Shown here: positions 5,448 to 33,454 of the stretch, one piece after another | How the letters are laid out: each line of letters starts with the position of its first letter | How positions within the stretch are numbered: the stretch's first letter is position 1 | Assembly (NCBI RefSeq): GCF_030034735.1 | Contig: NZ_CP125370.1 | Location: 3,162,001 to 3,226,000, forward strand | Source of the DNA: Paenibacillus sp. RC334 | GTDB lineage: Bacteria; Bacillota; Bacilli; Paenibacillales; Paenibacillaceae | Direction of reading: 5' to 3' | Length of the DNA: 64,000 nucleotides | The notes under the pieces: model-generated | What the model saw: the letters and a program-made list of their open reading frames with translations, nothing else | Told to the model about the DNA's origin: nothing | The model's database searches: none | Translations under genes and position numbers: made by a program

Positions 5448-8400
5448 TTACGTTAGCGATTCTTCCTGCTCCAAGGCGACAATCCGACTGGCAAGCTCTT
5501 CCCAAACCTGTGGCTGCTCACCACCCGTAAGTGCATGCTCCATACCGCGAATCGTCTCCAGCATCTGCTCCCGAAGCTGAGTCGTCTGCCACATTTGTTC
5601 CTCCTGTACCAGCATAATGTAAAAAGAGGACATTCGTTCTCGCTGTTGCTCTACAGCTTCCCCGATTCTCTCGCGCAGCACTGGCTCCAGTTTGGTTTGC
5701 AGACCCGCACGGCCAGATCCTTCAAAAAATAGCTTTGGATTTTTAAAGCTGCCCCAATATTCTTTCCAATGGACGGACTCCTGTAAGGAAATTTCAATCA
5801 GTTCGGGAACAGCCCATTCTCTGGGTTCAGGAACCGTGCAATCCAGTCCTTCCAGCTGATGGTTCATGTCCTCTACACACCGCTGTATAGCCTTGCGTAC
5901 CAAGCTTTGTCCCGTTTTTTCCAGCCTCAGCGTGGTTGCCAGCAATTCTTGTGACAGTTCCAGTTCGATCAGGCGCATCAGCTCACGGCCACAGGAAGCA
6001 AATGCTGAACGAAGATCGCCCACACCTTCCCGCAGGACAGACGGATGAAACGCCTCCGCGATAAACTCTCCAGTCCGATAAGCCAGCCGTTGACGTACGT
6101 GAAACAGCAGTTCATCGGTTTCCCCAGACAACACGGCTGCACCACTGCTATCAGACAGGCTCAGTAGTGTTTGCTCCAGTCCCTCGCGGATATGGTTTAT
6201 TCGCTCCAACCGCCCTTCGCGTTCCTCCACGCTATATCTGGCATCTGCGGCGTGTTGCACTATCCGGCTTCGCAACCGCCCCAGCTCCTGCATGGCGGAA
6301 GCAATGGACAATCCGGCCAGCTCTTCGGCTGCAAATGCTGAAAAATCATCTTCAAACGCATCAAAACCTGAAGCCGCACGCAGCGAAGCCTCTCCTTGCT
6401 CGGCTGCTTCCAGCGCCAGCATACTGGACAGCGGATAAATACGCGGCTTACGAATCCCGTTCGCTTGCAGTTGCTCATGCACATGCCGGGTTACGGATTG
6501 TAGCTCTTCTTCGGACGAAGCGAGGTCCGCTGCATTGACGATGAAAAAGGTCTGATCCAGCGCCAACGTCTCTTTCACCCGGCCCAATTGATTCAAAAAT
6601 TGACGGTCTCCTTGAGTGAACGCATGATTATAGTACGTGACAAATACAAGAGCGTCCGCATGCTTCATATAATTGAAGGTCACACCTGTGTGACGCGCAT
6701 TGACTGAATCCGCTCCAGGCGTATCCACAAGCACGATCCCCTGACGGGTCAGAGGGCAGTCATAATAAAGGTCAATATGCTCCACAAAGCATGACTTATG
6801 CTCGGATGCAACAAAATCCCGATATTGCTCCAGATTTACTTGAAGCTGCTGGCCCAGCAAACTTTCAGCTTCTTCCCATCCAGCGGCGGCAGCCTTCAAA
6901 AAGCTGTAATGGGGCCGCCCGGCAGGGTGAATGCCTTCGGGGGATAACGCATGTACGGTATCCTGCCATCCCTCTGCACCCGGTTCTCCCAGCCCTAACA
7001 GCCGAAACGAGTATTTAAGGTCTTCCCGCAAAGCGTCCACTGATTTCATATGGACGTCTGCGGTAGCATGGCGCTCCTTGCTTGCGGGCGCCATAATCCG
7101 GTTAATCGCCGCTGTCGTCGGATGCGGCGATACAGGCAACACCGCTTCGCCCAGCAAAGCGTTGGCGAAGCTGGACTTCCCGGCGCTGAACGCTCCGAAC
7201 AGCGCCAGCGTGAACCGCCCGCCTTCCAGCGCAGCGGCGCGGGCGTGCAAATCCCGTACTGCAGCTTGCATGGCAGGGTACGGGCTCAACAATGCAGCGG
7301 CGGCCTCCAATCGGGACGCTGCTGCATCCAGCCGCGTGCGGCGGCCTCCGGCGGCGGGCTGTGCTGCCGTCGTGCCTGCAAGCGGCTGCGCCGCTGCGGC
7401 GTGTGCGCCAGCGGCGGCAGTACGCGCAGCGCCCGCTGGCGCGGCCGAAGCCGCAGCGGTGGTTTCCGCCGCAGGCGCTGGCGCGGCCGCCTGGGGCAAC
7501 GCGTCAGGCGCGGCTGCTTGCGGAAGCAGGCTGCGCAGCACGGTGGCGTGCGCAGCCGAGGCGCTTAGGCGGGCGCGATAACGGCCTGCCGCGTCCGCCT
7601 GCGCCAGCAGCTCGGTGCGCGCGGACGCAAGCGCCGCGCGGCGTGCTTCGGCCTGCGCAGCTAGCTGCGCCAGCATGCGATCTGCCAGCGCCAGCGCCTT
7701 GCAGCGGCAATCTGCCGTAACGGCGCTGCGCAGATCCTTGCAATAGTTCAGCGTATACTCCGACGACAACGCGGTTTCCTTCACCGTCTGCTCAATCAGT
7801 CTCCGATCCGTCACAGGACGAATTTCGTCCAGCTCCTGCTCCATCGCAGCCGACCACAAACCATGCCCATCCCCCCAGGAACGCAGCAGCTCTCGAACAT
7901 GAGGAAGCAACTGCCCCTCCACCTGATCAGCCAGCATACCAGTCAGTCGTTCTAAACGGTTTTCCTTCTCCCGCTCCGTCTTTCCCCCGGCAAACCATAG
8001 CCCGGCCTTGAAGCCCGGCTTGCGGCTCTCCAAATATTCGCCCGCCGCCTCACGCAGCTCCGCAGGTGTCAAATGGGCATGCTCCAGTACATGATCCAAC
8101 TCTTGCCGCAGCCGTTTATGCTCCTGCTCCGCCAGCATCAGCCAGCGTTCATCCTCTTGCTGCAAAACTTCCAGCTCCATATCCAGACGCGAAATGGCTT
8201 CCTCCCCGCCTGCCTCTTCCAGCAACGTGTTCAGTTCCTCTTCCTCCGCAGCCTGTACAGCCTCCACATGTTGATCCGCCAAATGGCGCATGGAGGAAAC
8301 CAAACTGTACGACAATAGCTCTGTTTTTCGCTCCAACAGTGCTTTGATTAGCAACGGCAGCTCTTTCCATTGGTTCCAAGGATGGTTTTGCTCTTTCAAG

Positions 8401-9122
8401 GAGGTGAACAGTATATCCGTGTAATGAACCTGCCAAGCATGAAAGCTAGCCTCCACCTCACTACGATAACGTGTAAATGAAAGCTCTCGCTCTCGATGCT
8501 TATCTATTTGGTTAATAATCAAATATAACGGCTTGCCCCAATCCGACAGACTTTTGGCAAAGGACAAGTTATTTTCCGATTGAATATGGTTATAATCCAT
8601 CACATAAAAAACAATATCCGCCCAGTGCAAAGCAGAATGTGTCGCCAGCGCATGGCCGTGGTCCGTAGAATCGACACCAGGTGTATCCAGCAGTACCCCT
8701 CCGCCAGCTAACATCGGGACATCCTCCCATACCTGAACCGATTCGTAAGCTCCGCCATTTTTACAATATTCAGCCAGCTCGGACAGAGAGGTTTCCAGCA
8801 CCTCCGGCTCCGGGTTTTCTGATGTTTTGGCCGGATGAATTAGCGCTCTCGAACGTCCGTAACGGATGGACACCACATTAGCGCTCGTAGGAACCGGCCC
8901 GGAAGGCAGCACTGTTTTGCCGCACAGACTGTTGATCAAGCTCGATTTCCCAGCGGAAAAATGCCCGCAAAATGCAATGGTCAGTTCCTCTGCATCCGCC
9001 TTCTCCAGCAAGTCAGCTACGGCTTTCGCTCCTTCCTCATCCCCGGCTGTGCGCAAAAAATTCCGTAACTGTTCTATCGTATTCATTTCTTCCCGAGCAT
9101 TCCCTGTAATCGTTTGCATCAT
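5448..9122 (-). CDS. dynA: Double-headed bacterial dynamin-like GTPase (DynA/YpbR type)
   Basis: This 1224-residue protein contains two complete dynamin-like modules in one chain, as in Bacillus DynA (about 1190 residues). That protein tethers and fuses membranes and helps cells survive membrane damage and phage. Module 1 has a P-loop GHFSAGKSS at residues 53-61, a switch motif LLDTPGVDSTD near 145 and NQID near 190. Module 2 has GAFSAGKSS near 645, VLVDTPGADS and a weaker NAAD for base recognition. Long helical stretches follow each GTPase head. The modules are joined by about 80 residues made almost only of Ala, Pro, Thr and Gly, coded by unusually GC-rich DNA (about 7300-7540). The ATG at 9122 has AAGGAG 15 bases upstream, which is rather far. 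A second ATG 12 codons in is a possible start. Confidence 0.9.
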   Translation of the reverse strand: MMQTITGNAREEMNTIEQLRNFLRTAGDEEGAKAVADLLEKADAEELTIAFCGHFSAGKSSLINSLCGKTVLPSGPVPTSANVVSIRYGRSRALIHPAKTSENPEPEVLETSLSELAEYCKNGGAYESVQVWEDVPMLAGGGVLLDTPGVDSTDHGHALATHSALHWADIVFYVMDYNHIQSENNLSFAKSLSDWGKPLYLIINQIDKHRERELSFTRYRSEVEASFHAWQVHYTDILFTSLKEQNHPWNQWKELPLLIKALLERKTELLSYSLVSSMRHLADQHVEAVQAAEEEELNTLLEEAGGEEAISRLDMELEVLQQEDERWLMLAEQEHKRLRQELDHVLEHAHLTPAELREAAGEYLESRKPGFKAGLWFAGGKTEREKENRLERLTGMLADQVEGQLLPHVRELLRSWGDGHGLWSAAMEQELDEIRPVTDRRLIEQTVKETALSSEYTLNYCKDLRSAVTADCRCKALALADRMLAQLAAQAEARRAALASARTELLAQADAAGRYRARLSASAAHATVLRSLLPQAAAPDALPQAAAPAPAAETTAAASAAPAGAARTAAAGAHAAAAQPLAGTTAAQPAAGGRRTRLDAAASRLEAAAALLSPYPAMQAAVRDLHARAAALEGGRFTLALFGAFSAGKSSFANALLGEAVLPVSPHPTTAAINRIMAPASKERHATADVHMKSVDALREDLKYSFRLLGLGEPGAEGWQDTVHALSPEGIHPAGRPHYSFLKAAAAGWEEAESLLGQQLQVNLEQYRDFVASEHKSCFVEHIDLYYDCPLTRQGIVLVDTPGADSVNARHTGVTFNYMKHADALVFVTYYNHAFTQGDRQFLNQLGRVKETLALDQTFFIVNAADLASSEEELQSVTRHVHEQLQANGIRKPRIYPLSSMLALEAAEQGEASLRAASGFDAFEDDFSAFAAEELAGLSIASAMQELGRLRSRIVQHAADARYSVEEREGRLERINHIREGLEQTLLSLSDSSGAAVLSGETDELLFHVRQRLAYRTGEFIAEAFHPSVLREGVGDLRSAFASCGRELMRLIELELSQELLATTLRLEKTGQSLVRKAIQRCVEDMNHQLEGLDCTVPEPREWAVPELIEISLQESVHWKEYWGSFKNPKLFFEGSGRAGLQTKLEPVLRERIGEAVEQQRERMSSFYIMLVQEEQMWQTTQLREQMLETIRGMEHALTGGEQPQVWEELASRIVALEQEESLT

Positions 9123-9246
9123 AAGCTATAGTTCCACTCCTTGTCCCTTAACTACCTCAAATAGCTTTATTGTAGCATTCCTTAGGCGCTGTGAGAATCA
9201 TCACAGTTCAGGTTTTTGCAAAAATCCACAAAGCGACGTGTAACCA

Positions 9247-21391: not shown

Positions 21392-21740
21392 ATTACGATA
21401 AAAATGGGATAACGATCAGTCATCCCACCTTTATAAAAGAGTAAAAGCCCTCCGTTTAAGAGGGCTTTTTCATATATGCTGGCCGCAAACTAAAGTCATT
21501 CGATTGACCTCACTAACCTCCAATCAAGTCCACTCCAACCTCATCTATGTAAAATTATGGCTTAGTGTAATGAATTTCACATCTTTCCGGGTCAACCTGT
21601 TCTACCATAGAAGAGTGATACGCCGTGCTGGGCAGACCACTTTGGGCGGGACGGGTGCGTTCTGCTGTAAATCAGCTACACAGGCTGTCTGGCATGTGCG
21701 GCAAGCACGCTTTTATTTTGATTCGAAGCGGAGTGTCCAG
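21392..21740. other. Intergenic region upstream of the DUF2294 gene
   Basis: 349 bp. It has the VOC gene terminator (21443-21476), then about 150 bp of GC-rich sequence (21600-21725) that may fold as a structured leader. No known riboswitch class was recognised. Confidence 0.4.
21443..21476 (+). terminator. Rho-independent terminator after the VOC gene
   Basis: AAAAGCCCTC / GAGGGCTTTTT with a short loop and a U-tract. Confidence 0.88.
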
Positions 21741-22106
21741 ATGTTGAATATCGAATGGGAATACCGTGAGCGCATCAGGAAGCTGGCCGTATGCATTGTC
21801 AAGCATTACCGAGGAAAAGGACCGGACAATGTCAAGGTTTCACTGGATTCGCCGCTCCGGATTACGGTAGAAATTTGGGGCACCTTGTCCAATCTCTCCG
21901 AAATTTTGGTTCATGAAGGGGCTGGCGAAAAGGTCAAAGAATATTGGAACGTCCTTCGTCCTTATCTGGAAAAGGAATTTATGAGCGAAGCTGAAAAAAC
22001 ACTTGGCAGTCCCTTCACTTACACTTGGGAAGTCTACCCCTCCGTCCATGGAGACGGACATATTATCATTACTCTTGAATTACAACACATACACCGGTTG
22101 GATTAG
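21741..22106 (+). CDS. DUF2294 (MpsC-like) domain protein
   Basis: A 121-residue cytosolic protein. The pattern RKLAVCIVKHYRGKGPDNVKV, then an amphipathic helix and VHGDGHIIITLELQ at the end, matches DUF2294, a domain also called MpsC in the staphylococcal membrane-potential system; its biochemical role is unknown. The ATG at 21741 has GGAG seven bases upstream. The open frame continues farther 5' but without a plausible start. It lies just before the formate dehydrogenase gene, but a strong hairpin with seven U (22138-22188) separates them, so the link may be regulatory rather than a shared transcript. Confidence 0.75.
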   Translation: MLNIEWEYRERIRKLAVCIVKHYRGKGPDNVKVSLDSPLRITVEIWGTLSNLSEILVHEGAGEKVKEYWNVLRPYLEKEFMSEAEKTLGSPFTYTWEVYPSVHGDGHIIITLELQHIHRLD

Positions 22107-22137
22107 CGGGAAGGAGCTTGTCTCCTCGCCTGCGGAT

Positions 22138-22188
22138 AAGCCAGTACAGGATGCAGCGTGAAGCGGCATTTTTGTATTGGCTTTTTTT
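22138..22188 (+). terminator. Terminator or attenuator before formate dehydrogenase
   Basis: An 11-bp stem AAGCCAGTACA / TGTATTGGCTT with one G-U pair and an inner TGC/GCA stem, followed by seven U. A smaller hairpin (AGGAG/CTCCT) precedes it at about 22110-22130. It could end the DUF2294 transcript or attenuate the 10-kb hydrogenase operon. Confidence 0.75.
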
Positions 22189-22235
22189 CATGTTACGAGC
22201 TTCATCTATTTCATATAAAAAGAGGTGCTGCACAC

Positions 22236-24398
22236 ATGGCAGACAAGGTATTGACCGTATGTCCCTACTGCGGAAGCGGTTGTCAGCTTCATTTGCTGGT
22301 GGACAAGGGACAGGTAATTGGCGCAGAGCCGGCTGGTGGTCGTACAAACGAAGGAACATTGTGTCTGAAAGGACATTATGGATGGGATTTTCTGAATGAC
22401 CCGCAAATTCTAACCGCACGCTTGCGCAAGCCCCTGATTCGAAAAAATGGAGTCATGGAGGAAGTGGAGTGGGAAGAAGCCATCCAGTATACCGCTGAAC
22501 GCCTTTTAGCAATCAAGGAAAAATACGGACCAGATTCCATTATGGGAACAGGCTCCGCACGTGGTCCGGGAAACGAAGCGAATTATGTCATGCAAAAGTT
22601 CATGCGGGCGGTCATTGGCACGAACAATATTGACCATTGCGCTCGTGTATGCCATGGCCCTTCTGTGGCTGGTTTGACATACTCACTCGGGGACGGAGCC
22701 ATGTCCAACTCAATTCCAGAAATTGAACACTCTGATCTTATTTTCGTGTTTGGGTATAATGCACCCGAAACACATCCGATCGTCGCAAGACGCATTGTAG
22801 CTGCCAAGCAAAAAGGTGCCAAAATTATTGTATGCGATCCGCGCATGACTGAAACTGGACGCATTTCAGATATGTGGCTACCTCTAAAAGGCGGTTCGAA
22901 CATGGCTTTGGTGAATGCTTTTGGTCATGTGCTTGTACATGAAGGACTGTACGACAAACGATATGTGGAAGCAAACACAGAAGGCTTTGCCGAATACGTA
23001 GAAAGCATTAAAAAATATACGCCTGAATATGCAGAAGGCATTACGGGGGTCAAGGCGGCTGACATTCGAGCAGCTATGAGGGAATATGCAAAGGCCCCTA
23101 CCGCTACAATTCTGTATGGAATGGGCGTATGTCAATTTTCACAGGCCGTTGACGTGGTAAAGGGACTCGCTTCTCTTGCACTGTTGACCGGAAATCTGGG
23201 CAAGCCGAATGTGGGGATTGGGCCTGTGCGGGGGCAAAACAATGTCCAGGGCTCCTGCGACATGGGCGCATTGCCGAATGTATATCCTGGTTATCAGGAA
23301 GTAACGGATAGCACGGTTCGCAAAAAGTTTGAAAAAGCATACGGTGTTGAGCTGCCGCGTAAAAAAGGATATCCCCTTACGGAGGTGCCACACCTCATCC
23401 TGAAGGAGAACAAGCTGAAAGCTTATTATATTTTCGGCGAGGACCCTGTACAAAGCGATCCGAACGCCGCCGAGTTACGTGAAGCGCTAGACCAATTGGA
23501 ATTTGTCGTGGTGCAGGATATTTTCATGAATAAAACGGCGCTGCACGCCGATGTCATCCTCCCTTCTACCTCCTGGGGCGAACATGATGGTGTGTATTCC
23601 TCGGCAGACCGCGGCTTTCAGCGCATTCGCAAAGCGGTCGAGCCACAAGGTGACGTAAAGCCGGACTGGGCCATTATTAGCGAAGTTTCTACCGCCATGG
23701 GCTACCCTATGTCCTATGCAAACACAGAGGAAATTTGGGATGAAATGCGTAGCCTCTGCCCGTTATTCGCTGGTGCCAGCTACCAAAAAATGGAGGAACA
23801 AGGTGGCGTACAGTGGCCCTGCCCTACAGAGGATCATCCAGGCACACCGTATTTGTACAAAGGTAATCAATTTTCCACTCCTAATGGCAAAGGCCGATTA
23901 TTTGCCTGCGAATGGCGTCCGCCGCAAGAACAGCCGGATGCGAAATTCCCGCTTGTCTTATCTACAGTCCGTGAAGTGGGGCATTATTCCGTACGCACCA
24001 TGACCGGTAACTGCCGTGCGCTGCGCCAGTTAGCTGATGAACCGGGCTTTATACAAATTAGTCCGGAAGATGGAATCGATCTGAATATTCTCGATGGCGA
24101 AATTGTCGCCATATCCTCCCGTCGTGGACGCATTATGGCACGAGCGCAGATTAGTGACCGTGTGCAACAAGGCGCGACCTATATGACCTATCACTGGTGG
24201 GTTGGAGCATGTAACGAGCTGACCGCTGATTTTCTCGATCCGGTATCTAAGACCCCGGAATTAAAATACTGCGCCATTCGGCTGGAACGGATCGCCGACC
24301 AAACACAGGCCGAGCGTGATGTACATGAATCGTACCAACGGATTCGCAGACAGATGAACGTCCAGGAAGCTGTTTTGGCGGATAAGGTGACGAGATGA
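22236..24398 (+). CDS. fdhF: Formate dehydrogenase catalytic subunit (Mo/W-bis-MGD, Cys form)
   Basis: A 720-residue molybdopterin enzyme that oxidises formate to CO2. The N-terminal [4Fe-4S] ligands are Cys9, Cys12, Cys16 and Cys43 (VCPYCGSGCQ, TLCLKG). The metal ligand motif CARVCHGPSVAGL has Cys139-His140, the place of selenocysteine in E. coli FDH-H. The formate-binding arginine is in VRGQNNVQGSCDMG. The bis-MGD region ends with VREVGHYSVRTMTGN. It lacks the 2Fe-2S/ferredoxin extension of NAD-linked enzymes, so electrons must leave through separate iron-sulfur subunits. The ATG at 22236 follows AGAGGTG. It overlaps the next gene by 4 bp (ATGA) and heads the hydrogenase operon. Confidence 0.95.
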   Translation: MADKVLTVCPYCGSGCQLHLLVDKGQVIGAEPAGGRTNEGTLCLKGHYGWDFLNDPQILTARLRKPLIRKNGVMEEVEWEEAIQYTAERLLAIKEKYGPDSIMGTGSARGPGNEANYVMQKFMRAVIGTNNIDHCARVCHGPSVAGLTYSLGDGAMSNSIPEIEHSDLIFVFGYNAPETHPIVARRIVAAKQKGAKIIVCDPRMTETGRISDMWLPLKGGSNMALVNAFGHVLVHEGLYDKRYVEANTEGFAEYVESIKKYTPEYAEGITGVKAADIRAAMREYAKAPTATILYGMGVCQFSQAVDVVKGLASLALLTGNLGKPNVGIGPVRGQNNVQGSCDMGALPNVYPGYQEVTDSTVRKKFEKAYGVELPRKKGYPLTEVPHLILKENKLKAYYIFGEDPVQSDPNAAELREALDQLEFVVVQDIFMNKTALHADVILPSTSWGEHDGVYSSADRGFQRIRKAVEPQGDVKPDWAIISEVSTAMGYPMSYANTEEIWDEMRSLCPLFAGASYQKMEEQGGVQWPCPTEDHPGTPYLYKGNQFSTPNGKGRLFACEWRPPQEQPDAKFPLVLSTVREVGHYSVRTMTGNCRALRQLADEPGFIQISPEDGIDLNILDGEIVAISSRRGRIMARAQISDRVQQGATYMTYHWWVGACNELTADFLDPVSKTPELKYCAIRLERIADQTQAERDVHESYQRIRRQMNVQEAVLADKVTR

Positions 24399-25024
24399 GC
24401 GGGACACGAAACGCGCTGAGTCGTCCGATGAGTAGAATGGGAGCAGCCGATAGAACAAGCGCTGTCGCCTCTTCCTTTGTGGTCGCAGATGCCGGGCACT
24501 GTATCGGCTGCAAAGCCTGCGAGCTGGCGTGCTTCGCCGTTCACAGTCAAACTAACGGCATAGGCGCTTCGGTCGGAACCGTCAGCGTGCCTGTCGTACC
24601 TAAGGTGTATGTTGTACGCGCCGGGGATACGTATGTGCCTGTGCAATGCCGGCATTGTGAGAATGCGCCCTGCGCACATGCCTGTCCGGTTCAGGCCATT
24701 CGACAGGAGAACGGTGTGGTTATGATTGATGAGGAGCTGTGCATCAGCTGTACCTCTTGTGTTTTGGCCTGTCCCTTCGGGGCCATTGAGGTATCTACCG
24801 TCTACCGGGAAGGACGCGTCATGACGCAGCCCGGCTTGACTGATCGTGCCGCTCACAAGGCTCTCCCCCGGACTGCCGCAGGCAAATGCGACCTCTGCGC
24901 AGACACAAACGGAGGACAGCCTGCCTGTGTAGAAGCCTGTCCAAACGATGTACTACGGCTGGCTATAGTCGAGTCCGATCCGCTTCCCGAGCGTCGGCGG
25001 GAAGTCTTCTTCCCTCGCCTGTAA
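24395..25024 (+). CDS. Polyferredoxin electron-transfer subunit (HydN/HycB type), first copy
   Basis: A 209-residue protein with four cysteine clusters of the kind that bind [4Fe-4S]: CIGCKACELAC, CRHCENAPCAHAC, CISCTSCVLAC and CDLCADTNGGQPACVEAC. This DMSO-reductase B-like pattern is used by HycB/HydN to carry electrons between formate dehydrogenase and hydrogenase. About 25 extra residues rich in Ser, Arg and Ala precede the first cluster. There is no Tat signal or membrane helix, so the complex should be cytosolic. The start overlaps the fdhF stop (ATGA), and hydA follows after 33 bp. A second homologue lies at 26744. Confidence 0.92.
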   Translation: MSGTRNALSRPMSRMGAADRTSAVASSFVVADAGHCIGCKACELACFAVHSQTNGIGASVGTVSVPVVPKVYVVRAGDTYVPVQCRHCENAPCAHACPVQAIRQENGVVMIDEELCISCTSCVLACPFGAIEVSTVYREGRVMTQPGLTDRAAHKALPRTAAGKCDLCADTNGGQPACVEACPNDVLRLAIVESDPLPERRREVFFPRL

Positions 25025-25057
25025 GGCCAAAATCAGCCGCAGAAAGGTAGAAAAAAG

Positions 25058-26560
25058 ATGTCCATAACAACTAACAATGCCTCTTCGGCTCCTTGTATGG
25101 AGACGACGGATTACACCAACCCCATTATTCATATTGATCCCAGTATGTGTACCGGGTGCAGACGCTGTGCAGGGGTTTGTCCGGTAGATGCCATAGAAGG
25201 ACAGCCCGGAGAGCCGCAAACCGTGAACGCAGACCGCTGCGTGATCTGTGGCCAATGTGTACAAATATGCAGCGTATACGCATCCGATTGGGCAGGTTCA
25301 TCCCCACAGGAAGCCGCCAGCAGACGACAGGAGCGCTTGCGTGAGCGCGATATGCCTGCTGACATCGGAGAACCGCTATTCGCTGCCTATTATAGCGGTA
25401 GCCTGAATAAGGTAACCGACATGATGACGAAACCGGGACAGTTTCGGATCGTCCAATGTGCTCCAGCCATTCGCGTTTCAATCGCAGAGGAATTTGGTAT
25501 GCCATTTGGCACGCTCACACCAGGTAAAATGGCTGCGGCCCTGCGCCGTCTTGGCTTTGATCGGGTATATGACACCAACTTTGGAGCTGATGTCACCATT
25601 ATGGAGGAAGGCACCGAGCTGATTCGTCGTGTAACCGAAGGTGGGCCGCTACCGATGTTTACCTCCTGCTGTCCGGCATGGGTTCGATTCGCCGAGATTG
25701 AATATCCCGATCTTTTGGACCATCTATCCAGCTGCAAATCCCCTATGCAAATGCTAGGCTCGCTGGTCAAAACCTATGGTGCCCAACTGGACGAGGTGGA
25801 ACCTGCGAACATTTATAGCGTCGCAATCATGCCTTGTACCTGCAAGCAATTCGAATGTGATCGTCCTGAAATGGAATCCGACGGGTACCGTGACGTGGAT
25901 GAGGTACTGACAACGCGTGAACTGGCATACTGGATCAAGAAAAGCGGCATTGATTTTATGAATCTGCCAGATGAAGAATTCGATTCACCGCTAGGACGTT
26001 ATTCAGGAGCAGGGTCCATTTTTGGTGTAACCGGAGGCGTTATGGAAGCCGCCATCCGTACAGGCTACGAGCTGCTGACGAATGAAAAGCTACCGAAGCT
26101 CCAACTGGATTTTGTACGCGGTGAGGAAGGCATTCGAGTCGCTGAGGTTCAGGTGGGTGAGCTGGAACTCAAGGTAGCGGTCGTCGCGGGGCTGCAACAT
26201 GCCTATGGGCTGCTGGATCGTGTGCAGGCAGGCGAATGTGATTATCATTTTATTGAGGTAATGGGCTGTCCTGCCGGATGTATTAGCGGAGGCGGTCAAC
26301 CCAAGCTCATGCTGGAAAAACACCGGATTGAAGCTTACCGGGCACGCAAATCCTCTATTTATGGACATGATGCGGGGCTTCAGGTGCGAAAATCACATGA
26401 AAACCCTCACATTATTAAGCTGTACGATGAATTTTTAGGTGAGCCGCTTGGTCATGTTTCGCATCATCTGCTGCACACGACCTTCCAAAAGCGCGGACCA
26501 GGCAAGCAAAGTCGTAGCTGTGATGCTCCCGCTAAAGAGACAGGTAGCTCCATTCATTAG
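25058..26560 (+). CDS. hydA: [FeFe] hydrogenase catalytic subunit
   Basis: A 500-residue iron hydrogenase. Two [4Fe-4S] sites lie near residues 31-75 (CTGCRRCAGVCP, CVICGQCVQIC). The H-cluster motifs are complete: L1 TSCCPAW near 205, L2 MPCTCKQFE near 257 and L3 EVMGCPAGCISGGGQP near 400, giving all four cysteine ligands. Alanine after the proline in L1 (rather than Gly) is a trait I associate with group B [FeFe] enzymes; this subgrouping is inference. A C-terminal tail of about 60 residues ends the chain. The gene lies between two polyferredoxin genes, after fdhF, which suggests H2 formation from formate. The ATG has GAAAGG upstream. Confidence 0.96.
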   Translation: MSITTNNASSAPCMETTDYTNPIIHIDPSMCTGCRRCAGVCPVDAIEGQPGEPQTVNADRCVICGQCVQICSVYASDWAGSSPQEAASRRQERLRERDMPADIGEPLFAAYYSGSLNKVTDMMTKPGQFRIVQCAPAIRVSIAEEFGMPFGTLTPGKMAAALRRLGFDRVYDTNFGADVTIMEEGTELIRRVTEGGPLPMFTSCCPAWVRFAEIEYPDLLDHLSSCKSPMQMLGSLVKTYGAQLDEVEPANIYSVAIMPCTCKQFECDRPEMESDGYRDVDEVLTTRELAYWIKKSGIDFMNLPDEEFDSPLGRYSGAGSIFGVTGGVMEAAIRTGYELLTNEKLPKLQLDFVRGEEGIRVAEVQVGELELKVAVVAGLQHAYGLLDRVQAGECDYHFIEVMGCPAGCISGGGQPKLMLEKHRIEAYRARKSSIYGHDAGLQVRKSHENPHIIKLYDEFLGEPLGHVSHHLLHTTFQKRGPGKQSRSCDAPAKETGSSIH

Positions 26561-26743
26561 CACGTTAAGTTAAAAGGGTGAACCATTGCGGCATCCTGCC
26601 TCTCCATGCTTAAAAAGAAGCTGCTGAGTCTTATCTGTGTTCATCCTATGCTCATCATGTTCTGCACCAACAAATTGCATTTTTAAACTTTTTCATACTG
26701 TACCCATTGTATTTTGTCGTTAGTTAGAAAGGAGTCGAGTTGT

Positions 26744-27334
26744 ATGAACCGCTTTGTTTTAGCTGATCCCGATCAGTGTATCGGTTGTCGTACCTGTGAA
26801 ATCGCATGTGTCATCGCACATTCAGCAGGTAACCCTTTTATCTCGCCGGATGATGAGTTTCATTTTCATCCGCGTCTAAAGGTCATCAAATCTATTGGGG
26901 TCACTGCCCCTGTCCAATGCCGTCACTGTGAGGATGCCCCCTGCGCCAACGCTTGTCCGAACGGTTCCATTACGAACGCGGACGGCTGCATTCTCATTAA
27001 CAGCGAGAGCTGCATAGGCTGTAAAACCTGTATGATCGCCTGCCCATACGGCGCTATTACCATGGTACCTGAATATCGGGACGGGCGGCCTGTAGTACAG
27101 GATGGACTGTACAGCAATGTGTCAGGACGTTTGCAACCCAAAGAGCGAATGATTGCCAGCAAATGTGATCTGTGTGAAGGTGTAGAGGGTGGTCCCGCCT
27201 GCATTGGAAAATGCCCAACACGTGCCCTCAAGCTGGTTGAGCCTGATCTGGTTCACGCCCGTATTGAGGAAAAACGTGCTGCGAGCGCACGCCAATTACT
27301 GCATATGACGCGCATTCCGGCAACGGGTCTATGA
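26744..27334 (+). CDS. Polyferredoxin electron-transfer subunit (HydN/HycB type), second copy
   Basis: A 196-residue homologue of the first polyferredoxin, with four cysteine clusters: CIGCRTCEIAC, CRHCEDAPCANAC, CIGCKTCMIAC and CDLCEGVEGGPACIGKC. It starts directly with MNRFVLADPDQCIG and lacks the N-terminal extension of the other copy. AAAGGAG precedes the ATG at 26744. A gap of 183 bp separates it from hydA. No clear terminator or promoter was seen there, but the gap allows a separate promoter. The stop is one base from the start of the aspartase-like gene. Having two such proteins suggests either one larger complex or alternative electron partners. Confidence 0.92.
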   Translation: MNRFVLADPDQCIGCRTCEIACVIAHSAGNPFISPDDEFHFHPRLKVIKSIGVTAPVQCRHCEDAPCANACPNGSITNADGCILINSESCIGCKTCMIACPYGAITMVPEYRDGRPVVQDGLYSNVSGRLQPKERMIASKCDLCEGVEGGPACIGKCPTRALKLVEPDLVHARIEEKRAASARQLLHMTRIPATGL

Positions 27335-27335
27335 C

Positions 27336-28784
27336 ATGACTGAAGCCTTTCCTCTGCAAAAGGATACGCGAACCGAGCGGGATGCGCTAGGGGAAATGGA
27401 GATTCCCGCCAATGCCTGTTACGGCATTCATACCGCACGTGCAATGAACAACTTTGCGGTCAGCGGCAGACCTGTAAATCAAAAACTGATTCACGCGCTA
27501 GTACTGGTGAAGAAAGCAGCCGCTCAGGTGAACTGTGAGCAAAATCGACTCCCTCCCCACCAGGCGGCTGTAATTATAGACGCCTGCGATGAATTGCTCG
27601 CCGGGCGGCTTCTGGATATGTTCACAGTCGATGCCCTGCAAGGCGGTGCAGGTACCAGCACCAACATGAACGTCAACGAGGTCATTGCTAATTTGGCGAT
27701 TATGCGGCTTGGTGGAAAACCCGGACAGTATGAGCTAGTACATCCTCTGGATGATGTGAACTGCTGTCAGTCCACGAACGATGTTTATCCGACAGCATTA
27801 CGAATTGCTGCCATTCGACTGCTTCGTCCTTTATGTGACGCGATGGCTTCGTTACAAGAGTCTTTACAGCACAAAGAAACGGAATATGCCGATCTGCTCA
27901 AGCTAGGTCGCACACAGCTAATGGATGCCCTGCCCATGATGGCGGGGCAAGGCTTTGGTGCTTACGCAAAGGCCGTGGCACGTGACCGCTGGCGTCTCTA
28001 CAAAGCCGAGGAACGGCTGCGGGAAATCCCTATTGGTGGTACGGCGATCGGCACAGGCATGAATGCGCCTCGTGCTTACAGCTATCGGATGGTTGAGAAA
28101 CTGGCGGACGAGACTGGCTTTGGGCTATGCCGAAGTGACCACCCGATGGACCCGATTCAGAATATGGATGTCTTTGTGGAGGTATCTGGTCTGCTCAAAT
28201 CCGCTGCTGTGAACCTGTTCAAAATATCAGGCGATTTTCGCCTGCTGGCCTCTGGTCCTCTCGGCGGTATTGGCGAGTTCACTCTACCTCCAGTTCAGGC
28301 CGGATCATCCATTATGCCTGGCAAGGTTAATCCGGTGATGGCTGAACTGGCCGGACTAACGGCGTTGCGCGTGATAGCCGAAGATGCAGCGATTACTATG
28401 GCGGCTGCCTCCGGGCAGCTAGAGCTAAACGCGTTCCTGCCGCTGATTGCCGAATCGCTGCTGGCATCGCTACATATTCTGGACGGCGCGGTTCGGCTGT
28501 TCGATGAACGATGTGTACGCGGTCTGATCGTATGCGAGGACCGCTGTTCAGCTAATCTGCGTAACTCCGCTGTGATGGCTTCTGCGCTGGTCGCGGAGCT
28601 TGGCTATGATGAAGCTGCCTCCATTGCCTCAGCAGCCATTGCGCAGGGCCGCACACCGGAGGATATTACCGAAGAACGCGATTTGCTGACACGCTCGCGC
28701 ATTGAGCAATTGTGCCATCCCTATACAGTAACCAAGCCCGGTATTCCGGGGCAGGAAGAAGGAATTCACGATGGGAATGAATGA
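27336..28784 (+). CDS. Aspartase/fumarase-family lyase (aspartate ammonia-lyase-like)
   Basis: A 482-residue member of the fumarase/aspartase superfamily. It shows GAGTSTNMNVNEV near residue 105, CQSTNDVYPTA near 145 and the signature GSSIMPGKVNPVMAE near 325, whose mobile loop carries the catalytic serine. GSS followed by IMPGKVNP fits aspartase as well as fumarase. Its position, one base after a polyferredoxin and overlapping hydF by 14 bp, ties it to H-cluster assembly rather than to general amino acid use. An ammonia-releasing enzyme could feed the nitrogen of the dithiomethylamine bridge; this is inference. No strong ribosome binding site is present, so translation is probably coupled. 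Confidence 0.88.
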   Translation: MTEAFPLQKDTRTERDALGEMEIPANACYGIHTARAMNNFAVSGRPVNQKLIHALVLVKKAAAQVNCEQNRLPPHQAAVIIDACDELLAGRLLDMFTVDALQGGAGTSTNMNVNEVIANLAIMRLGGKPGQYELVHPLDDVNCCQSTNDVYPTALRIAAIRLLRPLCDAMASLQESLQHKETEYADLLKLGRTQLMDALPMMAGQGFGAYAKAVARDRWRLYKAEERLREIPIGGTAIGTGMNAPRAYSYRMVEKLADETGFGLCRSDHPMDPIQNMDVFVEVSGLLKSAAVNLFKISGDFRLLASGPLGGIGEFTLPPVQAGSSIMPGKVNPVMAELAGLTALRVIAEDAAITMAAASGQLELNAFLPLIAESLLASLHILDGAVRLFDERCVRGLIVCEDRCSANLRNSAVMASALVAELGYDEAASIASAAIAQGRTPEDITEERDLLTRSRIEQLCHPYTVTKPGIPGQEEGIHDGNE

Positions 28785-30024
28785 TACTCCCCGTAGCAAC
28801 CGACCGCACATCACCCTGCTCGGTCGCCGTAACGCTGGCAAATCCAGCATTCTGAACACCCTGACCGGCCAGCCCGCCGCCGTGGTATCTCCCGTAGGAG
28901 GAACGACCACGGACCCCGTTTTCAAGCCGATGGAGCTGCTCCCTGTTGGCCCCATTGTTCTGGTGGATACCGCCGGACTGGACGATGAGGGTGAGATCGG
29001 AGCACTGCGCCGCAACAAAACGCTAGAAATATTAAATAGCACGGATCTGGCGCTGCTAATCATCGATGCTACTACTGGGGTTAGCGCATTCGAACATGGA
29101 TTACTCGAAAAGCTGCGTGCCAAGAAGATTCCCGTCATTGGTGTATTAAACAAGACGGACATCCTTGCAGAAACAGAGAAAATAACCGCAACGCTGGGGG
29201 CTGAACTGGATTTATCCCTGATTCCTTTCAGTGCCTCTAAGCAATGGGGAGACGCGGAAGTGAAAAAGGCCATCATGGATGCCCTTCCGCAAAACGAGGA
29301 TCGTTTCCGTATCGTCGGTGACCTGCTATCGCCCGGCGATTTTGTCGTGCTGGTCGTTCCAATCGACAAAGCTGCGCCAAAGGGCCGACTGATTCTGCCA
29401 CAGCAGCAGACGATCCGCGATACATTGGAGAGCGATGCCATTGCCGTAGTGACTAAAGAGCATGAGCTACGGCTGACGTTGGAGCGCCTGGGGCGCAAGC
29501 CCCGCTTGGTCATTACCGATTCACAGGCTTTTATGAAGGTTGCCGCAGATACTCCCAAGGATGTGCCCCTGACCTCCTTTTCCATCCTGTTCGCCCGTCA
29601 TAAAGGTGACCTTGATGAACTCGTACGAGGTGCAAGAGCCATTGACCGTCTCAAGGATGGCGACCGCGTACTCATTGCCGAAGCCTGTACGCATCAATGT
29701 CAGTCTGACGATATCGGTCGTGTGAAAATCCCCCGTTGGCTCCGTCAAACGATAGGCAAACGTCTCATCATCGAGCATGCATCCGGTTCCAGCTTTCCTG
29801 ATGATCTAAGCGAATATGCGCTGGTTATTCACTGCGGGGCATGCATGCTCAATCGACGTACCATGCTGCACCGGATGGCAGAAACGGAAGCCGCCGGGGT
29901 ACCCATTGTGAACTATGGTATTTTCATCGCCTTCGTGCAGGGGGTCTTCCCCCGTGCCATCGAATGCTTCCCATCCGCTATGCTGGCATGGGAGCAAGCC
30001 GTTGGTGCTGGCAGCCATTCCTGA
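28771..30024 (+). CDS. hydF: [FeFe] hydrogenase maturation GTPase HydF
   Basis: HydF is the scaffold on which the di-iron subcluster is built before transfer to HydA. The 417-residue protein has a Ras-like GTPase domain (P-loop GRRNAGKSS at residues 18-26, switch VDTAGLDDEGEIG, NKTD), a dimerisation middle domain and a C-terminal cluster-binding domain. The [4Fe-4S] motif is seen as CTHQC near 306 and HCGAC near 352. The ATG at 28771 lies inside the end of the aspartase-like gene with AAGGAA upstream. The plus-strand operon ends here, facing hydG across a shared terminator. Confidence 0.96.
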   Translation: MGMNDTPRSNRPHITLLGRRNAGKSSILNTLTGQPAAVVSPVGGTTTDPVFKPMELLPVGPIVLVDTAGLDDEGEIGALRRNKTLEILNSTDLALLIIDATTGVSAFEHGLLEKLRAKKIPVIGVLNKTDILAETEKITATLGAELDLSLIPFSASKQWGDAEVKKAIMDALPQNEDRFRIVGDLLSPGDFVVLVVPIDKAAPKGRLILPQQQTIRDTLESDAIAVVTKEHELRLTLERLGRKPRLVITDSQAFMKVAADTPKDVPLTSFSILFARHKGDLDELVRGARAIDRLKDGDRVLIAEACTHQCQSDDIGRVKIPRWLRQTIGKRLIIEHASGSSFPDDLSEYALVIHCGACMLNRRTMLHRMAETEAAGVPIVNYGIFIAFVQGVFPRAIECFPSAMLAWEQAVGAGSHS

Positions 30025-30067
30025 ATGAGACGAATCATTGAAGCAACCAATTCCGCCCCATACACGC

Positions 30068-30108
30068 AAAAGCAGCCGCGCTGACTCTCACGCGGCTGCT
30101 TTTTATTT
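30068..30108. terminator. Bidirectional terminator between hydF and hydG
   Basis: A 13-bp stem AAAAGCAGCCGCG / CGCGGCTGCTTTT with an 11-base loop and U-tracts on both strands, placed between two convergent operons. Confidence 0.9.
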
Positions 30109-30136
30109 GCCAAATTCCAAAGAAAAGATCGATATT

Positions 30137-31549
30137 CTAAAAATACAAATCCCGCTCGCCCGCTTCCAAGCGTTCCAGCTTTCCCAGTGTCAAACGACGT
30201 GACGATTCATGCGGAATACGCTCCAAATTATCACGCAGGGCGGCAGCTCCCAGCTCACGTGCCTCTTCATCTCCATAATCCAACAGGTACTCCTGAAAGG
30301 TCAGCAGCGAATTGGGCTGGCATACGTTGTGAATCTGGCCTGATTTGGCCAGCTCCATGAACCGATCTCCGGTTCTTCCTTCGCGATAGCAGGCTGTGCA
30401 ATAGCTTGGCATATATCCGCCACGACACAGACTTTTGATGATTTCCACCGGCGAACGATGATCCCCGACCTCGAACTGGGGTTTATCTTCCGTATCCTGT
30501 TTTGCATAAGCCCCTACACCCGTAGCTGAACCTGCACTAATTTGTGACACACCCAGACCAATAACACGGTCTCTGTATTCCGGTTCTTCACGTGTAGACA
30601 AAATCATACCTGCATAAGGCACAGCCAGTCGGAGAACGGACACAATTTTCATAAAATCCTCGTCGTTGACCAAATACGGATAGCGCTCCAGATCCACATT
30701 TTCAGCCGGACGTAACCGTGGAACCGAAACCGTGTGAGGACCACAGCCAAACACTTCCTCCAGATGCTCAGCATGCTTAAGCATAGCTATCGTCTCATAA
30801 CGGAAATCGTATAAACCATACAGCACACCAATACCCACATCGTCTATCCCTGCTCGCATAGCGCGGTCCATGGCAGTCGTGTGCCAGTCATAATTCCGTT
30901 TTGGCCCTTGAAGATGATATTTGCGGTAGCTTTCGCGATGATACGTTTCCTGGAACAAAATATACGTACCAATTCCTACCTCTGCCAGCTTCCGATAGTC
31001 TTCTTCGGTTGTGGAAGCAATATTGACGTTGATTCGGCGTATGCTGCCATTGTCCACTTTAACCTCATAAATCTGACGCAGACAATCTACGATATAATCA
31101 ATCGGACAATTGAGCGGATCTTCCCCCGCTTCCAGTACGAGGCGCTTATGCCCCAACTCCTGAAGCACTCTGACCTCCTCGACCAGTTCCTCCGGTGTCA
31201 AACGGCTGCGGGTAAAGCTGTCATTGGTATGCTTATAGCCGCAGTATTCGCAGTTATTGACACAGTGGTTACTTACATATAGGGGGGCAAACAGTACAAT
31301 CCGATTGCCGTAAATCTGCTCTTTCACCGCCCGTGAGGATCTAAACATTTCCTCCAGCAGTTCAGGATCATCCACATGCAAAAGAGCCGCCGCTTCAGTC
31401 GCACTCAATCCCCGGCAAGCTCTTCCCTTCTCCAAAATGTCTAAAATACGGTTTCGATCTGTTGCTTCCTGCTTTCCCTGCTCCACCGCTGCCATAATCT
31501 CTGCCTCATTAATGAAATCCGCCGACACTTTCTCCCGTACTTCACTCAC
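30137..31549 (-). CDS. hydG: [FeFe] hydrogenase maturation radical SAM enzyme HydG
   Basis: HydG cleaves tyrosine to give the CO and CN ligands of the H-cluster as an Fe(CO)2CN synthon. The 470-residue protein has the radical SAM cysteines Cys96, Cys100 and Cys103 (CVNNCEYCGYKHTN), the GE-like segment VLEAGEDP and the C-terminal second-cluster motif YCTACYREG with a third Cys 22 residues on (HNVCQPNS). The start is a GTG at 31549, about ten bases from a GGGAGATG box. It lies downstream of hydE with a 76-bp gap containing a copy of the 16-bp near-palindrome (31577-31592). It is encoded on the strand opposite to its partner hydF. Confidence 0.96.
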   Translation of the reverse strand: MSEVREKVSADFINEAEIMAAVEQGKQEATDRNRILDILEKGRACRGLSATEAAALLHVDDPELLEEMFRSSRAVKEQIYGNRIVLFAPLYVSNHCVNNCEYCGYKHTNDSFTRSRLTPEELVEEVRVLQELGHKRLVLEAGEDPLNCPIDYIVDCLRQIYEVKVDNGSIRRINVNIASTTEEDYRKLAEVGIGTYILFQETYHRESYRKYHLQGPKRNYDWHTTAMDRAMRAGIDDVGIGVLYGLYDFRYETIAMLKHAEHLEEVFGCGPHTVSVPRLRPAENVDLERYPYLVNDEDFMKIVSVLRLAVPYAGMILSTREEPEYRDRVIGLGVSQISAGSATGVGAYAKQDTEDKPQFEVGDHRSPVEIIKSLCRGGYMPSYCTACYREGRTGDRFMELAKSGQIHNVCQPNSLLTFQEYLLDYGDEEARELGAAALRDNLERIPHESSRRLTLGKLERLEAGERDLYF

Positions 31550-31625
31550 GTAGATCCATCTCCCTTATTTTGGTGAGGATTTCGCAAAATCCTATGGTTA
31601 CCTACTATTTTTTAGTTCAGCCCCA

Positions 31626-32636
31626 TCATTGACTTAGGAGCTGTCGCTGCACCCTCAAACTATCACCACGCCCCATATCGACTTCAAACCCCGCTCCACG
31701 GATGCGCAGCTCCAGGCAATGTCGACATTGGGCAGATTCATCACCCAAGCATATTTTATTTTCATAAATGGCATACTTCGGCCTCACTGCAAGTGGCGAC
31801 AAATTGGGCATAACTACATTCGCTCCCGCCTGTAGCGCCTTCTCCCGACCTTGGGGATGGATCGTTCCCATCGCTGTCGAAGCAGGAATAAGCGCATCTG
31901 GAACGACCAACCGGGACAACGAAACAATATCCAGCGCCTTTTCCATGCTTCCCTGACTGGCATCCCGGAGCGGCGTGTTGCTATGCGGTAAAAACGGTCC
32001 AATCCCGATCATATCCGGCGACAAGCTGTGCAAATAGACCAAATCGTCTGCCAAATCACTGTTCGTTTGTCCCGGTAAACCAACCATACATCCAGCCCCG
32101 ATCTGAAATCCGATTCGCTGCAAGGCCAGCAGACGACTGCGCCTGCTTTCTATCGTCATCGTCGGATGCAGCTTGGCGTACAAACGCGGTGAAGCCGTCT
32201 CATGCCGCAGCAAAAAGCGGTCCGCCCCCGCCTCGTATAATAGCGCATAGGTTTCATCATCCCGCTCACCAATGGACAGTGTAACGGCCACATCGGTAAA
32301 ACGGCTTTTGATCTCCCGAATCAGTTTCGCCAGCCGGGCTGCTGTGAACCAGTAATCTTCGCCGCTTTGCAGGACAAAGGTCCGATATCCCAGCTCATAC
32401 CCTTCCGCGCAACAGGCCAAAATTTCTTCCGGTTGCAAACGGTAGCGATCCGCCTGCTTATTCGAGGCCCGTAGCCCGCAATACATGCAGTCCTGACGAC
32501 ATATGCTGGAGAACTCAATTAATCCACGTAAAAAAACACCTTTACCGTAACGCTCCATTTTGATGCGAGCTGCCAGTTTTCGTAACTGTGTCCGCACCGT
32601 CGGTTCTTCCTCCAGACATACCAGCAGCTCCGTCAT
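31626..32636 (-). CDS. hydE: [FeFe] hydrogenase maturation radical SAM enzyme HydE (5' end irregular)
   Basis: HydE processes the Fe(CO)2CN-cysteine synthon during H-cluster assembly. From the first standard ATG (32636) the protein has 336 residues with radical SAM cysteines 46, 50 and 53 (CRQDCMYCGLR), LQSGEDYW and GAGCMVGLPGQTN, as in T. maritima HydE. Family members carry about 20 more residues, and such residues (TDELLLRLADGKEW) are encoded in frame upstream as far as 32693, where a TGA blocks the frame without any start codon. An ATG with a GAAGGG box overlaps this TGA in another frame (32695-32697). A one-base error near 32680-32697 would restore a normal start. Confidence 0.92.
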   Translation of the reverse strand: MTELLVCLEEEPTVRTQLRKLAARIKMERYGKGVFLRGLIEFSSICRQDCMYCGLRASNKQADRYRLQPEEILACCAEGYELGYRTFVLQSGEDYWFTAARLAKLIREIKSRFTDVAVTLSIGERDDETYALLYEAGADRFLLRHETASPRLYAKLHPTMTIESRRSRLLALQRIGFQIGAGCMVGLPGQTNSDLADDLVYLHSLSPDMIGIGPFLPHSNTPLRDASQGSMEKALDIVSLSRLVVPDALIPASTAMGTIHPQGREKALQAGANVVMPNLSPLAVRPKYAIYENKICLGDESAQCRHCLELRIRGAGFEVDMGRGDSLRVQRQLLSQ

Positions 32637-32863
32637 TTCCGTATGCGTCCATTCCTTGCCGTCAGCCAGACGCAGTAATAATTCGTCCGTGACTCATCCC
32701 TTCTTCCCTCGTCCATCTGGACTCCACGTCGTCAGCAGCTTGTACCGTACATGTATTATTCTAGCAACATCAGAGGGAATAGAACGTGACTAGCTTCACA
32801 AAAAATCCCATTTTCTGAATATAAACTCCAGCTTCTGCCTCAAAAAATACATATTTACCGCAA

Positions 32864-32916: not shown

Positions 32917-33454
32917 TTATTGAATTAAATCAACCGCCTGCTGTTCCAGTCCGAGTACACGTGTCATGTATTTATTGACATCCGTGTTGTCGATCACGCC
33001 GGACGGACGATCTCCGTTCGGCGTATAAGTGTACAGCACAACATCACCACCCGTATGACCACCTGTAGTCCAGCCAATATTTGCGCCTTTGCTAATGATC
33101 GGTCCGACTGCATAGTTCACGCTGCCTTCTTTGGCATCTTTGATCGTTTTTACTTCCTCATCCGTCAGATCCGTAATACCAAAATACGTGGACAGCACTT
33201 CTTTAATGTTGCTGCGATCTGCATCCAGCTTGGCTTCCAAGCCTTCACCTGCTGGAGCGGAATCTGCAATCGGAGCATCCGCAGAATGCGTGCGCACCAT
33301 ACCACTTGCCATGCTGTCTAACGTTAAGGAAGAACCTTTATACCATCTAGCCAGTGCAGTGGCATCATTAGCCATACCGTCTGGAATGAGAATAATTACA
33401 TACTGCTAACATCATGGTTGCTACGAGTGCAGCCACCGATTTTTTCGTATGTAT
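32917..33454 (-). pseudogene. Alkaline phosphatase relic with internal deletions
   Basis: The frame 32917-33375 reads MANDATALARWYKGSSLTL and DSMASGMVRTHSADAPIADS, typical of the active-site region of PhoA-type alkaline phosphatases. It then jumps at APAG to GEGLEAKLDADRSNIKE and the C-terminal metal-site motif WTTGGHTGGDVVLYTY. The central part of the family, roughly 200-250 residues with several metal ligands, is missing. Upstream in another frame there is a signal-peptide remnant (TKKSVAALVATMMLAV, about 33402-33448) without a start codon, then VIILIPDG leading into the main frame. Two deletions and a lost start show true decay. The usual total length would be near 450-550 residues. Confidence 0.82.

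Follow-up and report, generated by a model that had tools for sequence, protein, structure and literature searches.

We analysed a 64,000-nucleotide stretch of the Paenibacillus sp. RC334 genome (contig NZ_CP125370.1, positions 3,162,001 to 3,226,000; the whole stretch is hereafter the window), which holds a cluster of genes for a formate dehydrogenase, an [FeFe] hydrogenase and the maturation of the latter. Gene content, subunit families, gene linkage of ORF1 and conserved promoter boxes were computed here. By open reading frames and family matches, the plus strand carries, as intact frames, ORF1, fdhF, a polyferredoxin gene, hydA, a second polyferredoxin gene, an aspartase-like lyase gene and hydF, and hydG and hydE converge on this run from the minus strand. 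An initial annotation, made from the letters alone, had already named these genes in this order with all three maturases, and started the module at 21741; the gene that begins at that position, ORF1, was left unmentioned. The genes are as follows, in window coordinates.

21741..22106, plus strand: ORF1, 121 amino acids, apparently a divergent MpsC/DUF2294 (PF10057) protein, from PF10057 profile matches of aligned members
22236..24398, plus strand: fdhF, Cys-type molybdopterin formate dehydrogenase (TIGR01591 898 bits, cut-off 666; motif ARVCHGP)
24395..25024, plus strand: HycB4-like polyferredoxin with four [4Fe-4S] motifs (Thermoanaerobacter kivui HycB4, 197 bits)
25058..26560, plus strand: hydA, group A [FeFe] hydrogenase of the hydrogen-dependent CO2 reductase (HDCR) type (TIGR02512 above cut-off; T. 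kivui HydA2, 681 bits)
26744..27334, plus strand: second polyferredoxin, HycB3/HycB4/HydN-like, with four [4Fe-4S] motifs (HycB4 165 bits, HycB3 147 bits)
27336..28784, plus strand: aspartate ammonia-lyase-family enzyme (NF008909 602 bits, cut-off 510)
28771..30024, plus strand: hydF, H-cluster maturation GTPase (TIGR03918 558 bits, cut-off 326)
30137..31549, minus strand: hydG, H-cluster radical SAM maturase (TIGR03955 645 bits, cut-off 312)
31626..32636, minus strand: hydE, H-cluster radical SAM maturase (TIGR03956 456 bits, cut-off 255)

Comparison with relatives places the likely starts of FdhF and the second ferredoxin at ATG 22236 and ATG 26744, the open frames being listed from GTG 22158 and TTG 26714, respectively. 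The overlaps between fdhF and the first ferredoxin gene and between the lyase gene and hydF suggest a single operon. Each polyferredoxin has four four-cysteine motifs and the catalytic motif of FdhF has a cysteine, in agreement with the annotation of two four-cluster proteins and a Cys-type enzyme. The reported lack of a membrane subunit, a Tat signal and an NADH-binding subunit was borne out as well: the cluster proteins have no strong membrane span, the 19-residue hydropathy mean reaching at most 1.77, and no Tat-like N-terminus, since RR occurs within the first 40 residues only in HydF (19) and as part of the ferredoxin motif of HydA (35), and ORF and family matches placed no flavin/NADH subunit within the gene run.

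HydA, which carries two ferredoxin-type cluster motifs ahead of its H-cluster domain, is the sole Fe_hyd_lg_C match in the genome, indicating a single [FeFe] hydrogenase. Comparison with named relatives assigns the window to the Paenibacillus polymyxa/terrae group, with the HydA of P. terrae NRRL B-30644 being 99% identical. The enzyme had been assigned to group B because its loop reads TSCCPAW. The loop is indeed present; however, the NCBIfam group A model (TIGR02512) is passed with 452 bits against a cut-off of 406, while the B1 model (TIGR04105) is failed with 157 bits against a cut-off of 450. Among sequences of the Protein Data Bank (PDB), the best match is HydA2 of the T. kivui HDCR (7qv7_D, 681 bits; runner-up 413); T. 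kivui HydA2 (P0085) is 63% identical to the window protein. Furthermore, when 18 sequences of this group A clade are aligned, the window counted, 17 show TSCCPAW and the remaining one reads TSCCPSW. The loop is not diagnostic, and the assignment to group B is contradicted; we consider membership of that group next to inconceivable.

The T. kivui HDCR also provides the best solved relatives of both ferredoxins, HycB4 for the first (197 bits) and HycB4 and HycB3 for the second (165 and 147 bits). Both thus score higher with HycB4 than with HycB3. In sequence alignments, the second ferredoxin extends through the C-terminal segment of HycB3, to residue 179 of 184, and the final 18 residues of the first are unaligned to HycB4. 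The best solved relative of FdhF is Escherichia coli FDH-H (1001 bits), followed by T. kivui HDCR FdhF (724 bits). The cluster shows these features of the HDCR type (group A4): a group A HydA nearest to HydA2, two four-motif HycB-type subunits, a bis-pterin FdhF encoded alongside them, and the lack of any flavin/NAD(P)H bifurcating subunit among its genes. Judged by its subunit families, this is an HDCR-type formate dehydrogenase/[FeFe]-hydrogenase complex, membrane-free and of a known kind.

The clustering of fdhF, two ferredoxin genes and hydA is kept in loci of Paenibacillus, Clostridium and Desulfosporosinus, and the subunits of the Clostridium beijerinckii complex co-purify (PMC12905484). 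Both observations argue against an arrangement in which the genes are mere neighbours, HydA having some unrelated partner (a ferredoxin or NADH) and FdhF passing electrons to another acceptor; we give this arrangement very little credence. The annotated route, from formate through the polyferredoxins to the H-cluster, is well supported by homology to the T. kivui and Acetobacterium woodii HDCRs and the C. beijerinckii complex, for which such a route is described (PMC6288185, PMC12905484), but is not new (PMC6288185). In print, putative HDCR clusters in many Paenibacilli and a formate-hydrogenlyase role were put forward in a 2018 review (PMC6288185), which also cites the 1962 work of Grau and Wilson on hydrogen production from formate by P. 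polymyxa extracts. A 2026 paper describes a soluble C. beijerinckii Fdh/Hyd that splits formate to H2 and CO2 and also reduces CO2 (PMC12905484). Cluster type, likely function and the role of the lyase appear, on our analysis, to be already explained by published work.

The genome encodes one pyruvate formate-lyase (PFL)-like enzyme and two formate/nitrite-channel genes, and has four molybdopterin-oxidoreductase matches, this FdhF among them; it contains no match to a [NiFe] large subunit and none to a CdhC-type acetyl-CoA synthase. A single PFL, together with the lack of a [NiFe] hydrogenase and of a CdhC match, favours formate oxidation to H2 over CO2 fixation. We consider it very probable, from sequence and by analogy, that a soluble HDCR-type complex encoded here serves as formate hydrogenlyase in fermentation. 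Electron path, direction, maturation and regulation are here carried over from relatives. In the proposed working, PFL would supply formate, and FdhF, with its cysteine-ligated Mo- or W-bis-pterin centre, would oxidize it to CO2; the [4Fe-4S] clusters of both HycB-like subunits would relay the electrons to the ferredoxin domain of HydA and on to the H-cluster, where protons would be reduced to H2. HydE, HydF and HydG, together with aspartase-derived ammonia, would assemble the H-cluster.

The same proteins might instead act mainly as a CO2 reductase that, as in acetogens, supplies one-carbon metabolism with formate made from H2 and CO2. In favour of this, both HydA and the first ferredoxin belong to the HDCR type, and the C. 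beijerinckii complex works in both directions at similar rates (PMC12905484). However, a CdhC-type acetyl-CoA synthase match is absent from the genome (formyl-tetrahydrofolate synthetase was not searched for), PFL is able to supply formate, and the fermentation products of P. polymyxa include formate, H2 and CO2 (PMC6288185). We therefore regard a chiefly CO2-reducing role as improbable. It should be noted that several points weigh against a formate hydrogenlyase of the HDCR type: by bit score, FdhF is nearer to E. coli FDH-H than to the T. kivui HDCR FdhF; the one FdhD of the genome is encoded outside the cluster, beside a second formate dehydrogenase; and, because the relatives are reversible, sequence does not fix the direction of the reaction.

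The lyase passes the NF008909 model, though it scores 491 bits with TIGR00839 (aspA), under the cut-off of 681, and its best solved relative is an aspartate ammonia-lyase. Published work reports that the bridging ligand of the H-cluster can obtain its nitrogen from aspartase, and that aspA often adjoins hydF (PMC11736057). The lyase fits this maturation role, in which it would act as the ammonia source for the bridging ligand (PMC11736057). The cluster includes hydE, hydF, hydG and the aspartase gene in 13 of the 17 Paenibacillus loci that have fdhF; the lyase gene and hydF are missing from the cluster in L028 and L029 (L numbers denote loci, G numbers genomes), and L033 and L034 are interrupted by contig ends. 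The second ferredoxin and aspartase genes are one base apart in the window, unlike in the sister Paenibacillus loci L030 (12010-13050) and L036 (12042-13274), where a moaA-like radical SAM gene, recognized by eye, lies between them.

ORF1 is tightly linked to clusters of this type. A scan of named genomes gave 80 loci for comparison, 31 of which have a HydA match of at least 57% identity together with an FdhF match; 48 further loci (HydA 44-48%) have no FdhF match, and L022 has too little sequence. In 25 of these 31 loci, ORF1 immediately precedes fdhF. Neither tblastn nor the family profile found it in L040, L041, L047, L048, L049 and L050, of which L041 is a second cluster, with an FdhF 46% identical. 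We then compared the distributions of ORF1 and HydA across 392 sampled Paenibacillales genomes, scoring up to 11 candidates per genome for the ORF1 profile and up to 3 for HydA. The ORF1 profile matched 33 genomes (E<=1e-15), and HydA matched 64, comprising 33 with the HDCR type (at least 716 bits) and 31 with only other [FeFe] hydrogenases (at most 426 bits). The 33 ORF1-positive genomes and the 33 genomes with HDCR-type HydA are identical sets. ORF1 and hydA share contig and strand in 32 of these 33, with ORF1 upstream at a distance of 2.9-3.1 kb, and are on different contigs in G233. In a sample of 148 Paenibacillaceae, which overlaps the larger one, a search at E<=1e-3 gave strong ORF1-profile matches in two HDCR genomes and weak ones (E 4.6e-4 and 8.9e-4) in two non-HDCR genomes. 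Our literature search found nothing in print on this linkage, which is new here.

The other [FeFe] hydrogenase type, seen in 31 of the 392 genomes (e.g., L004-L016), scores 390-426 bits in frames of about 580-640 amino acids. It adjoins hydG in all 13 small loci examined (L004-L016), and is accompanied by ORF1 only where an HDCR-type HydA is present too, G247 being an example.

What ORF1 does is approached here through its family and its partners. PF10057 was matched by all 19 aligned ORF1 members at E<=10 (best E 1.3e-11), and most of 101 database relatives listed for ORF1 carry that label; the window ORF1 itself scores 19.4 bits, below the Pfam gathering score of 23, and the only PF10057 match of the genome at E<=1e-3 is a different gene, sited elsewhere. 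These profile matches suggest that ORF1 is a divergent branch of MpsC/DUF2294. Its predicted structure gave no confident fold match. A literature search found no paper joining DUF2294 with formate dehydrogenase, none of the 9 papers listed by a looser search was, by its title, on formate dehydrogenase, and the main text of PMC12905484, on the C. beijerinckii complex, does not mention MpsC. In Staphylococcus aureus, deletion of mpsC caused no growth defect, and outside the staphylococci mpsC is reported not to be located with mpsAB (PMC6689103).

When the 31 loci are sorted by the catalytic residue of FdhF, 23 encode a cysteine, and all of these have ORF1; the other 8 show an in-frame stop (taken, by inference, for selenocysteine), and 2 of them have ORF1. 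The tree places few independent lineages behind this association. For T. kivui, FdhF lacks selenocysteine, and the cluster as published includes no ORF1-like gene (PMC6119302). We speculate that ORF1 is a dedicated accessory protein, its most likely task being FdhF assembly or stability. More specifically, it is conceivable, though we hold it only tentatively, that ORF1 represents a branch of MpsC/DUF2294 dedicated to formate dehydrogenase, a specific factor that soluble formate hydrogenlyases would use for the assembly, stability or positioning of FdhF, perhaps chiefly of its Cys form. Telling against such a role, plasmids described as encoding the four subunits and the HydE/F/G maturases yielded active C. 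beijerinckii Fdh/Hyd in E. coli (PMC12905484), so an ORF1 homologue is not indispensable for that complex. If ORF1 is an FdhF-dedicated factor, this would be the first function for the misnamed MpsC family, and its tight linkage offers a direct handle on what these proteins do.

The two outer promoters of the cluster carry candidate regulatory sites, and the leader of the plus-strand run is conserved.

21566..21581, no strand assigned: near-palindromic, FNR/CRP-like box that precedes the fdhF transcription unit and reads TGTAA-N6-TCACA, with one mismatch to TGTGA-N6-TCACA
21566..21740, plus strand: non-coding leader in front of ORF1-fdhF, highly conserved among polymyxa-group sequences, from base conservation
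32785..32800, no strand assigned: FNR/CRP-like box TGTGA-N6-TCACG (read on the minus strand), upstream of hydE, conserved in polymyxa-group loci

Both boxes are kept in all seven polymyxa-group loci examined, the window counted. The first has the same sequence throughout and lies 178 bases ahead of ORF1 in L027 and 175 bases ahead of it in the other six (window, L021, L023-L026); the second stands at -164 from hydE in all seven (window, L021, L023-L027), its half-sites constant and its 6-base spacer variable. Sites resembling TGTGA-N6-TCACA with up to one mismatch number 21 in 278,669 bases of 13 loci, 12 of them being the two boxes in six loci. The window holds 6 such sites against 2.0 expected, a number reached in 3 of 100 shuffles. 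Conserved candidate boxes at both outer promoters are consistent with anaerobic control, and an FNR/CRP-type regulator probably turns on both transcription units without oxygen. Speaking against this, neither box turned up, at one mismatch, in any of the seven sister Paenibacilli scanned (L028-L032, L035 and L038; L033, L034, L036 and L052 were left out). A literature search found nothing in print on these boxes. The only exact TGTGA-N6-TCACA of the window is at 9190-9205.

In the leader, 67 of 75 bases are invariant at 21566-21640, 13 of 40 at 21641-21680 and 53 of 60 at 21681-21740, in an alignment of 15 of 26 examined sequences (10 distinct) chosen by a 12-base motif adjoining the start codon. 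As a whole it is more conserved than the third codon positions of ORF1 (57 of 121 invariant). No third-position excess was seen, RNA folding was not exceptional and no Rfam match was obtained.

Two further features of the window lie outside the cluster. Beside hydE, a 152-amino-acid frame on the minus strand (32917-33375) matches only residues 340-422 of 423 of an alkaline phosphatase model and is possibly a gene remnant. At 5448-9122, also on the minus strand, a 1224-amino-acid protein consists, by eye, of two dynamin-like GTPase halves with a very Ala-rich, GC-rich linker; GC content at 6001-8000 is 60%, against 47-48% in the adjoining 2-kb windows.

Overall, the cluster is a likely genetic basis of formate-to-H2 conversion in P. 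polymyxa, a facultative anaerobe, and, with three H-cluster maturases and the aspartase at one locus, offers a compact source for formate/H2 catalysts.

Compared with known systems, the locus resembles formate hydrogenlyase-1 of E. coli in its FDH-H-like FdhF, its HycB/HydN-like ferredoxins and the proposed overall reaction, but that system has a [NiFe] hydrogenase and a membrane arm, whereas the window encodes an [FeFe] enzyme and no membrane arm, which sets it apart from the E. coli type. With the HDCRs of T. kivui and A. woodii (PDB 7qv7; PMC6119302, PMC6288185) it shares the subunit plan FdhF-HycB-HycB-HydA. The T. kivui enzyme, whose composition and filaments are treated in PMC6119302 and PMC10413684, is the best solved relative of the window HydA and both ferredoxins, but not of the window FdhF. 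Unlike the acetogen hosts of HDCR, this Paenibacillus genome has no CdhC match. The closest characterized relative is the C. beijerinckii complex CbFdh/Hyd (group A4, PMC12905484), likewise soluble, with a Cys-ligand FdhF, HydA and two HycB subunits. In another strain, C. beijerinckii HUN142 (L046), identity to the window proteins is 76% for FdhF and 60% for HydA, and the Cys-type fdhF likewise has an ORF1 homologue in front; however, Mo-cofactor-type and fdhD-like genes (by eye) separate fdhF from the ferredoxin-hydA genes there, and no hydE, hydF, hydG or aspartase match was found within the locus stretch searched. Finally, ORF1 and its relatives match the MpsC/DUF2294 family, yet form a distinct branch of it.

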